Positions 16,853 to 62,754 of a stretch of DNA of 64,000 nucleotides are shown in pieces. Every line of letters starts with the position of its first letter. Positions within the stretch are counted from its first letter, which is position 1. The notes below the pieces were generated by a model, which saw only the letters and a program-made list of their open reading frames with translations, did no database searches and was not told the origin of the DNA. The DNA is from Candidatus Scalindua sp. SCAELEC01 (lineage in GTDB: Bacteria > Planctomycetota > Brocadiia > Brocadiales > Scalinduaceae). The stretch is from positions 1 to 64,000 of the forward strand of contig SHMT01000017.1 of assembly GCA_004282745.1 (NCBI GenBank), read 5' to 3'. The position numbers and the translations under genes were made by a program.

Positions 16853-17010
16853 TACTCATCTTATAATGGTTTTCGGATAAAATCCGAGAAAAAACGGAGC
16901 GAGTAAAGTCCTCGGCGTCCGGGGATACCTTCACCAAGATTTGGTTTCCAGCCCGCCCGGCCTGCCAGCCGTTCGGACGGGTAAAACCGAAAACCAAATC
17001 GGTTTTAGTA
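16853..17010. mobile_element. Element B, 158 bp copy (MITE-like, TA-flanked)
   Basis: The left end TACTCATCTTATAATGG continues to TTTTCGG. The right end, read inverted, is TACTAAAACCGATTTGG followed by TTTTCGG. Both are immediately flanked by TA, as expected for IS630/Tc1-mariner-type target duplication. The core is GC-rich and has no convincing coding sequence. Related copies are at 23022, 30846, 40465, 52562 and 62331. It lies between htpX and ftcD. Confidence 0.7.
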
Positions 17011-29213: not shown

Positions 29214-29358
29214 CTGTTTGAATGGAAACCCCGTGGTTGAACTAAAACTGCCCAGATACAAGGCGCGTAATAATTTCGTAACCGGAACGTACTCAAGTAC
29301 GTGAGGATTACGTAATTATAACAGCAACGCCGTATATGGGTAGTTTTAGTTCAAACAC
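29214..29358. mobile_element. Element A, 145 bp copy between moeA and lnt
   Basis: The ends are GTTTGAATGGAAACC-like and, inverted, GTGTTTGAACTAAAACTACC. The whole element is a long imperfect palindrome centred on ACGTACTCAAGTACGT. TA follows the right end at 29359-29360. It is identical in length to the copy at 59856-60000 and to the 30787 copy once its nested insertion is removed. No coding potential is seen. Confidence 0.8.
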
Positions 29359-30566
29359 TAGCTAAAGTCGTCAATTAACATTACCTCTACCCTATCACCG
29401 ACTTTAAATCTCTCAACCTTTTCATCTATAATGAGCAGACTATTTGCCTTTGTCGTTGAAAACAGATCGCCTGAACCATGCCAATCGACAGGGGAAACTA
29501 CCCACCTGTTCTCCAGATATCTCAAGAGCGCAGGTCTATATTCTCGACGCTTCTTTTTCATCGTAATGCTTTGTTCCAGTTCGGCAAGGAGTATCTGGTT
29601 GTGATAACGGGTAAATCCCATCATCTTTTTTATACACGGCCTTACAAACAGTTCAAAGGTGACCATAGTAGATACTGGATTACCAGGTAGGGCAAAAATC
29701 ACCTTCTCCCCTATCTTACCAAAAACCGTTGGTTTTCCTGGTCGGAGAGCGACCTTCTCAAAAAAAATTGTGATACCGAGGTCTTTCAGTACCTCTCCAA
29801 CAAGGTCGAATTCACCCATTGAAACCCCACCGGACAAAATAAGGATGTCTTTTTTTAAACCTTTTTGGACCAAACTCCTTATCTTACTTTTCTGGTCACT
29901 TGCTATTCCTAAAATCTCTACATCCCCTATTGTTCTTCGGACCTGAGCAGCCAGTGAATAACTATTACTATTACGTATCTGCCATGGTTTCGGTTTTTTT
30001 GCTACCGAAACCAACTCATCCCCTGTCGATATAATTCCAACACTGGGTACCGAAAAGACCTGAACGGTGTCGGCACCAACGGTGGCGAGTATACCGATTT
30101 CAGGAGGCCTTATCTTGGCCCCTTTCCGGAGAACGATCTTTCCTGCCCGCAAATCTTCACCCTTTTTTGCGATATTACCTCCTTTTTTGATGGTTTTCAG
30201 CAAACGAACACCTGTTTTGCCGTCGCACGGCCTTGTCTCCTCAACCTTTATTACGGAATCCGCCCCTTTCGGAACTACGGAACCTGTCATGATCTTGGCC
30301 GCTTCTCCACTGCGAATGGTTTTCTTCGGATTGTATCCAGCACGGATGTTCTCAACTACCACAAGATCTACGGGTGTTTTCGTCGTGTTTTTTGCAATTA
30401 CCGCATAACCATCCATAGCAGCCCTGTTAAATGGTGGCATGTCTGAATCGGCCTTTATGTTCTCTGCCAGACATAACCCTTGAGCGTTTTGTAATGGTAC
30501 ATTTTTCGATGGCAATGTTTTTACCTTTTTCAGGACAATCTGTATAGCCTTATCTACACTTATCAT
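29358..30566 (-). CDS. moeA: Molybdopterin molybdenumtransferase MoeA
   Basis: 402 residues, full length. MoeA inserts molybdate into adenylylated molybdopterin in the cytoplasm. Landmarks: DMPPFNRAAMDGYAV, GEAAKIMTGSVVPKGADSVIKVEET, PSVGIISTGDELV, ILSGGVSMGEFDLVGEVL, FALPGNPVSTMVTFELFVRP and a C-terminal domain IV. GGAGGG lies seven bases before the ATG. The stop codon TAG is made of the TA target plus the first base of element A, so the insertion set the present 3' end. No other molybdenum cofactor genes are in the window. Confidence 0.95.
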   Translation of the reverse strand: MISVDKAIQIVLKKVKTLPSKNVPLQNAQGLCLAENIKADSDMPPFNRAAMDGYAVIAKNTTKTPVDLVVVENIRAGYNPKKTIRSGEAAKIMTGSVVPKGADSVIKVEETRPCDGKTGVRLLKTIKKGGNIAKKGEDLRAGKIVLRKGAKIRPPEIGILATVGADTVQVFSVPSVGIISTGDELVSVAKKPKPWQIRNSNSYSLAAQVRRTIGDVEILGIASDQKSKIRSLVQKGLKKDILILSGGVSMGEFDLVGEVLKDLGITIFFEKVALRPGKPTVFGKIGEKVIFALPGNPVSTMVTFELFVRPCIKKMMGFTRYHNQILLAELEQSITMKKKRREYRPALLRYLENRWVVSPVDWHGSGDLFSTTKANSLLIIDEKVERFKVGDRVEVMLIDDFS

Positions 30567-30786
30567 AAACCCTCCTTCAAACCATGTATTGGTATCTCTG
30601 ATTCATGTGAAAAATACAAATAGTATTATTTGACAGAAAATGACTAGTTGTCATACCTAAATTTCACTTTGGCAAAATTCTCTTTGTATTGGTATAAAAA
30701 AGAAGCACATTGTAAACAGACAGTACAAATATATCAACAATCAAAGATTCTTGCACACAATGCACTAATTTGTAACAGTCTAAATA

Positions 30787-31111
30787 GTGTCTGAACGAAA
30801 ACCCTGTGTTTGAATGAAAAGTGCCTAGGTACAAGGCGCGTAATATACTCATCGCAAATTGGTTTTCGGTTTTCAGATCCCGATTTCACCAGACCTTTAG
30901 ATCTTTCTCAATCAAAATATCCTCGCCTTGATAGCACCAAGGCTCTGGTTTTGTTCAATCGAAAAATCAAAATTTCAGGCAAACTCTTGCCCAGAAATTC
31001 CAAAAATCAATTCGCGATGAGTATAATTTCGTAACCGGAACGTACAATTGTACTTGAGGATTGCGAAATTATTGCAGCAACGCAGTAGATGGGTAGTTTT
31101 CGTTCAAACAC
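30787..31111. mobile_element. Element A copy interrupted by element B
   Basis: The left end GTGTCTGAACGAAAACCC and the right end, inverted, GTGTTTGAACGAAAACTACC are flanked by TA on both sides (30785-30786 and 31112-31113). Removing the inner element B plus one TA leaves exactly 145 bases and restores the GGCGCGTAATAATTTCG junction seen in the 29214 copy. The inner centre is the palindrome GTACAATTGTAC. Confidence 0.85.
30846..31023. mobile_element. Element B, 178 bp copy nested in element A
   Basis: The terminal inverted repeats are TACTCATCGCAAATTGG plus TTTTCGG on the left and, inverted, TACTCATCGCGAATTGA plus TTTTTGG on the right. TA duplications flank it at 30844-30845 and 31024-31025. 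The insertion point falls in the middle of element A. The core has no convincing coding sequence. Confidence 0.85.
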
Positions 31112-31265
31112 TAAATAAGAAGCTGGCAAGGGCAAACCTCTCTACTAATTTCACCTTGACAACAAATACCGCAAACATTACATTAGTACGATTGATACAG
31201 CATTGTGTCTCCGATGTAATCTTGTACATATGGTGTAACGTTACGGTGGTCCCTAATGATTGACC

Positions 31266-40464: not shown

Positions 40465-40488
40465 CCGAAAACCATTATGGGATGAGTA
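40465..40488. repeat. Right end of an element B copy
   Basis: CCGAAAACCATTATGGG followed by ATGAGTA; inverted, this is TACTCATCCCATAATGG plus TTTTCGG, matching element B ends at 16853 and 62360. A left end is not clear, so it may be a solo end. Confidence 0.5.
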
Positions 40489-59708: not shown

Positions 59709-59855
59709 AATTTTAATGTTAACGAAAAATATCATCGGGTGGATTGGTAAAATAGAGTATCTTGTGCCCATAATCTTTACTAGCCGATTTAAAATGCTGG
59801 TCAGGAGAGGTCTATTCATATCCCGGGATGACAACACACTCTCCGTCCCTATTTT

Positions 59856-60000
59856 GTGTTTGAACGAAAACTACCCATCTACTACGTTGCTGCAACAATT
59901 CCGAAATCCTCAAGTACAATTGTACGTTCCGGTTACGATATTGTTACGCGCCTTGTACCTGGGCACTTTTCATTCAAACACAGGGTTTTCGTTCGGATAC
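59856..60000. mobile_element. Element A, 145 bp copy between btuB and btuF
   Basis: The left end GTGTTTGAACGAAAACTACC and the right end, inverted, GTATCCGAACGAAAACCC; TA follows the right end. The centre is the palindrome GTACAATTGTAC, and the whole folds on itself. It interrupts the spacing of the uptake operon, so btuF-tonB may be expressed separately from btuB. Confidence 0.8.
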
Positions 60001-60062
60001 TATTTTGTTTGTTACAAACAGCAACGATCTGCTTCCACTCATCCTTTGTCTGAAAACATCAG

Positions 60063-61997: not shown

Positions 61998-62041
61998 AAC
62001 TCATCCTTTCCCCTCGGAAAAATATAGTAAAAATTGTGCAA

Positions 62042-62225
62042 AACAGGTCTCCTGGCTATCGGGTCCTCCTACTCTCTGCGCCTTCCCGGACAACCGTTTA
62101 AACTGTTTAAACGGTTGTCGTTTCCCAGTGGCATCTTGCAGATTTCGTTACCGACTACAGTTGCGGGGCAGCTCCCATTATCCGAAATTGATTCGTTGGG
62201 GATTCCCTCGTATTGCACACACCAT
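62042..62225 (-). ncRNA. Cobalamin riboswitch 1, upstream of btuB
   Basis: Read on the minus strand: AATGGGAGCTGCCCCGCAAC then TGTA, the B12-box GCCACTGGG, an arm closed by a 13-bp perfect palindrome (62090-62118), GGGAAGGCGCAGA, and AGCCAGGAGACCTG. These match the conserved cobalamin aptamer elements in order. The 3' end lies 45 bases before the btuB ATG, close enough to mask the ribosome binding site, so translational control is likely. Confidence 0.92.
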
Positions 62226-62230
62226 ACACT

Positions 62231-62281
62231 CAAAAGTTGCAGTGGTATATCCATCAGCACCAAATCAACTGCAACTTTTCA
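62231..62281 (-). other. Hairpin 5' of riboswitch 1
   Basis: Minus-strand AAAAGTTGCAGT pairs with ACTGCAACTTTT across a 26-base loop just ahead of the aptamer. It may insulate the aptamer from upstream RNA. There is no T-run. Confidence 0.5.
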
Positions 62282-62330: not shown

Positions 62331-62383
62331 TACTCGCTCAATGTTATCTCGCATCTTATCCGAAAACCATTATGAGATGAGTA
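62331..62383. repeat. Element B, 53 bp copy between the riboswitches
   Basis: The left end TACTCGCTCAATG and the right end, inverted, TACTCATCTCATAATGG plus TTTTCGG. TA flanks both ends. It is a much shortened copy of the 158-178 bp elements. It lies in the leader RNA between the terminator and riboswitch 1. Confidence 0.6.
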
Positions 62384-62425: not shown

Positions 62426-62500
62426 CTATATTGGTTAAATGATAAAAGACGTCTCTTGCCTCCACCTTCTTTACCTTCGAAGAGTCAACGTGAAGCATTT

Positions 62501-62702
62501 ACCGGCAGGTTTTCTGACTATCGGGTCATCCTAATTTCTGCGCCTTCCCATACCAGATTGAAACAGAGGTAAAGTGGTTTATTGTCTCGATTTTTTATTC
62601 GTGACTTGCAGATTTCGTCACCGATTACAGCGGCGGGTCCGTGCCCTTATAAGGGGCTTCCCTATTATGTTGCTAACAGCAGTTGCCGTTCGCAAACACC
62701 TG
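62501..62702 (-). ncRNA. Cobalamin riboswitch 2, distal copy
   Basis: Minus strand: AGGTGTTTGCGAACGG, AATAGGGAAGCC, GACCCGCCGCTGTA, ATCGGTGACGAAATCTGCAA, a divergent B12 box (GTCACGA), a longer variable arm, GGGAAGGCGCAGA, and CCGATAGTCAGAAAACCTGC. The order and conserved blocks match the cobalamin aptamer, with the B12 box weaker than in copy 1. An intrinsic terminator follows, so this copy probably controls transcription. Confidence 0.9.
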
Positions 62703-62754
62703 TAAATGGATGTAAAATAATCAAAGAACAGTAATCAATCCAAAGTCGTCAACA

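Follow-up and report, generated by a model that had tools for sequence, protein, structure and literature searches.

The DNA analysed here is a 64,000-nt stretch (the window) of a 4.59-Mb genome assembled in 104 contigs; except where a count is called genome-wide or whole-genome, the flank and copy counts given below come from 2.06 Mb of stretches. Two copies of a 145-bp repeat, which we call element A, concern us most. The first (A1) is uninterrupted and fills the moeA-lnt spacer. The second (A2, 30787-31111) lies between moeA and a sensor histidine kinase gene, and measures 145 bp once a 178-bp insert, element B, is removed. The moeA gene adjoining A2 matches Candidatus Scalindua records, the nearest being Ca. 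Scalindua sp. RBC_AMX3 (82% identity), whose genome gives identical matches, at identical coordinates, to the one same-genus genome compared (G001). These matches suggest that the organism is a Scalindua-like anammox (ammonium-oxidising) planctomycete. The insertion can be read directly in the sequence. A1 reads GGCGCGTAATAATTTCG at 29262-29278; the A2 junction reads GGCGCGTAATA, then B (TACTCATCGC...GCGATGAGTA), then TAATTTCG. A first-pass annotation had stated that deleting 30846-31023 and one TA restores the junction of the uninterrupted copy, and removing these 178 bp and one TA does give back the 17-mer of A1. In a repeat search of the window, the two halves of A pair separately (29215-29272 with 30788-30845, 83%; 29270-29365 with 31023-31118, 85%), and B is bounded by 26-nt inverted arms that are 88% complementary. 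TA is duplicated around B. The span that the same annotation gave for A2 is exact to the base, with a perfect 6-bp repeat, TAAATA, immediately outside it. This repeat was absent from the annotation; because it flanks A2 perfectly, A2 is itself an insertion that duplicated its target. Coordinates are collected in Table 1.

Table 1. Features of the nested locus, other A copies in the window, and example loci elsewhere.
Feature	Position	Strand	Evidence
Left 6-bp target duplication of A2, TAAATA	30781..30786	.	Sequence
Left part of A2, A model 1-59	30787..30845	+	nhmmer match 30787-30845
Left TA, target duplication of B	30844..30845	.	Sequence
Element B, putative 178-bp MITE of IS630 type	30846..31023	+	At least 40 full copies, one other 100% identical; hairpin fold z -6.3
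Left terminal inverted repeat of B, TACTCATCGCAAATTGGTTTTCGG	30846..30869	+	Repeat search; pattern search, chance expectation 0.01
Right terminal inverted repeat of B	31000..31023	-	Repeat search; pattern search
Right TA, target duplication of B	31024..31025	.	Sequence
Right part of A2	31026..31111	+	nhmmer match 31022-31111, model 56-145
Right 6-bp target duplication of A2, TAAATA	31112..31117	.	Sequence; pair TAAATA/TAAATA
A1, uninterrupted A copy filling moeA-lnt spacer	29215..29358	+	nhmmer model 2-145; site empty in sister species; hairpin z -7.9
Right target hexamer of A1, TAGCTA, overlapping moeA stop codon	29359..29364	.	Sequence; single TAGTTA in sister
Third A copy, flanks TATTTT at 59850-59855 and 60001-60006	59856..60000	-	nhmmer; sequence
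Hotspot example loci, A position 43-45	G000:C101:8505-8682; C22:7378-7555; C99:6837-7092		
A-C composite loci	G000:C99:6837-7092; C101:121116-121371; C101:121534-121789; C101:123340-123595		

Element A forms an abundant family. Its ends are GTGNNTGAACGNAAAC; on the left, the end motif is present a second time (18 bp), except in some copies. We counted 157 near-full copies in 2.06 Mb, which extrapolates to ∼350 per genome; at least 40 copies were scored in a whole-genome BLAST search. The end motif occurs at 554 sites genome-wide with three or fewer mismatches, and a reversed-pattern control gave 0. When TA was not required in the flanks, 56 of 73 full copies of A were bordered by identical 6-bp sequences, 55 of which have the form TANNTA. 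A is thus short and multi-copy, with terminal inverted repeats and a target site duplication, as expected of a MITE, but the duplication is 6 bp long rather than the 2-bp TA of IS630-type elements. A candidate reading in which A duplicates only 2 bp within a TANNTA context is disfavoured by copies with TAACTT or TATTTT on both sides, which favour a true 6-bp duplication. The intervals inspected between neighbouring A copies hold ordinary genes only and yielded no longer element with A ends, matching duplication and a transposase ORF. Of 17 members of the taxonomic family, no genome other than this one and its sister was found to carry A. A literature search on TANNTA duplication returned nothing relevant.

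Element B is likewise repeated, with at least 40 full-length copies genome-wide (whole-genome BLAST, E down to 9.6e-89), and the numbers of full B copies, scored A copies and A end motifs (against none in the control) mean that the repeats are not chance resemblances. The 40 copies scored fall into two subfamilies. Seventeen, counting the window copy itself, are 94–100% identical to that copy and make up the youngest subfamily; the others are 83–85% identical to it. One other copy is 100% identical to the B of the window, so B has moved recently. The first-pass annotation described B as a discrete unit that targets TA, and TA indeed lies on both sides of 27 of 33 full copies in 2.06 Mb. It also held that mobility was proven. 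Here, the copies do support B as a mobile unit, but the word is too strong for transposition deduced from copies and not observed. Besides this genome, a few other members of its taxonomic family carry B.

Several features connect B to the IS630 family, whose member ISY100 integrates at TA in nearly all cases, duplicating that dinucleotide (PMC2170065). B is short, non-coding and multi-copy, duplicates TA on insertion, and has 24-bp inverted ends (TACTCATCGCRAATTGRTTTTYGG) of a kind also present in the resident IS630, of which the 3′ end was compared. The stop codon of an IS630-type transposase remnant (C30:20383-20634, Pfam DDE_3) falls within a terminal repeat agreeing with the ends of the second B subfamily at 26 of 29 bases. 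The same IS630 end, followed by TA and then by differing flanks, recurs at six contig ends (C101, C102, C26, C57, C85 and C103), the trace that a repeated IS leaves when it is too long to be assembled through. In this genome the IS630 is assembled as the C-terminal remnant and these contig ends, with no complete copy; two loci with B-like single ends (L085 and L088) were examined for a full-length IS and held none. Fuller IS630 transposases with similar ends are present in two related genomes (G042 and G014), that of G042 being 343 aa long. From these similarities we conclude that B is, in all likelihood, a MITE of the IS630/Tc1-mariner type. The resident IS630 transposase would be the enzyme that moves B in trans, presumably by cut and paste, by analogy with ISY100. 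Three further IS630-type MITE ends (TACTCATC..ATAATGGTTTTCGG), resembling those of element C (see below), lie in the window at 16853-16876, 40465-40488 and 62360-62383.

The predicted folds of both elements are much more stable than those of shuffled sequence (z -7.9 for A, a near-full-length hairpin, and -6.3 for B), as would be expected if they were structured RNA genes or regulatory RNAs and not transposons. Long hairpins follow from inverted repeats, however, and target duplications, empty sites and terminal repeats are features of transposons. An Rfam scan of the window matched neither A nor B; its only hits were cobalamin riboswitches, two of which stand in tandem on the minus strand (62025-62245 and 62487-62718). 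We consider an RNA identity for A and B highly improbable.

Comparison with the sister species helps to order the events. The orthologous moeA-lnt spacer there lacks A1 and has one TAGTTA, where the present genome has A1 and TAGCTA; most simply read, A1 was gained once the two lineages had separated. The right-hand hexamer of A1 (within window 29358-29364) overlaps the moeA stop codon, a TAG that corresponds to TAA in the sister. At the A2 locus, the interval from moeA to the histidine kinase gene in the sister (L124 1177-4806) contains a gene for a lipoprotein together with an Mla-type operon. Only an 82-bp stretch of the window (30680-30761) aligns with this block, and the best match to its MlaE in this genome is 39% identical, with no close one found. 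Owing to this different gene content, an orthologous empty site for A2 is unreadable in the sister. Elsewhere in the sister genome, the two halves of A are contiguous, and no B was found there among the 40 of 176 candidates scored. Since A occurs without B in the sister, and the A1 site there has one target hexamer, A is the older element and B the insert, as the first-pass annotation had proposed. That annotation had named the reverse history, in which B was there from the start and its deletion gave rise to the uninterrupted A copies, as the outcome that would overturn its reading. Nothing was found in favour of such a history, and it is contradicted by the contiguous A copies of the sister. 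Moreover, A without B is the great majority form here and the sole form seen in the sister, B copies also sit free of A at unrelated TA sites, and B lies at three different places within A copies. We give the deletion reading next to no credence. The nested insertion was correctly observed, and its interpretation, with B entering a pre-existing A, is supported by these sequence comparisons and holds.

The TA sites of A receive other inserts as well. Element C is a third MITE (109 bp); 36 of its 37 copies are flanked by TA at either end. Full copies of B and C that span an A junction number 15 of 70 in 2.06 Mb, compared with ∼4 of 70 expected from the share of intergenic TA sites contributed by A (∼6%, using a crude ORF mask); another B copy lies directly against a truncated A. 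Eleven of these 15 nested copies, including both B and C, use the same TA, at A position 43-45 (CCAGRTACAAGG). Within the 11, all B copies have one orientation, as do all C copies. Two C-like inserts of other lengths occupy this site in the opposite orientation. The B of the window uses another TA, at A position 58-59. The nearest relatives of the inserts at position 43-45 are partly free copies, which points to several events at that TA, although their exact number is uncertain. We also considered whether six B copies at A ∼44 descend from one amplified A-B composite. This was rejected: the group has weak support in the tree (0.62) and takes in two free copies, several copies have free B as nearest neighbours, and C copies with differing nearest relatives occur at the same TA. 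The safer reading is that the TA at position 43-45 may be an insertion hotspot for both B and C. Four loci hold a 256-bp A-C composite, each with an A-type duplication of its own; two of these duplications are exact and two have one mismatch. The four share a substitution at the first base of C and represent two A backgrounds. This distribution could have arisen because A and C move jointly, or through recombination among A copies.

We assign a probability of about 0.94 to the reading that the window contains two non-autonomous transposons, nested by successive insertions. The hairpin-forming A would have come first, entering a TAAATA that lay between moeA and the histidine kinase gene and leaving two copies of that hexamer. 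B would have followed, placed in the TA at A position 58-59 by an IS630/Tc1-mariner transposase that acted on the terminal inverted repeats of B in trans, with duplication of the dinucleotide. Both elements are parasites that depend on enzymes made elsewhere. A different route to the same arrangement is that an A-B composite formed at another site and jumped here as one 325-bp unit through the machinery of A. The perfect outer TAAATA repeats agree with such a jump, and the four A-C loci suggest that composites may move. However, no second copy of the A-B junction of A2 was present among the B copies examined, and the B of the window belongs to the youngest subfamily. We therefore regard a composite jump as very unlikely; B probably landed at A2 itself.

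Nested MITEs are a known kind of event. Less ordinary are the TANNTA duplication of A and the hotspot at one of its TA sites. Our literature searches found no description of MITEs in anammox bacteria, and exact ends, target duplications and relative ages are now given for two abundant mobile families in one such organism. The 6-bp duplication of A raises a concrete question: which transposase moves A? How nested parasites merge into new mobile units could be studied, as a natural case, in the hotspot and in the A-C composite found at four loci. It is tempting to speculate, with more doubt than confidence, that A is a genus-restricted MITE moved by a TANNTA-duplicating type of transposase not yet paired with such elements, and that one TA within it is a preferred docking site of IS630-type MITEs, repeatedly giving rise to composites of which some then spread as new units.

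Comparable pairs of short elements and insertion sequences include RUP of pneumococcus with IS630-Spn1 and Nezha with ISNpu3-like elements in cyanobacteria (PMC3049150). As in the RUP/IS630-Spn1 pair, B is short, geneless and present in high copy number, and its terminal repeats are shared with a resident IS; it also has the TA duplication of the IS630 family. Unlike RUP, B belongs to a different sequence family, and in this genome its partner appears solely as fragments. By description, A resembles the ERIC and Correia elements in size (145 bp vs 127 bp for ERIC), palindromic structure, mostly intergenic position and copy number. ERIC and Correia elements duplicate TA, whereas A duplicates 6 bp, as TANNTA. 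Copy numbers of ERIC range from 30 to 711 per genome (PMC10969869). TIMEs, as reported in PMC4133298, are non-autonomous elements that combine into larger mosaic mobile units. Those mosaics are derived from Tn3, whereas the units described here consist of IS630-type elements nested in A.
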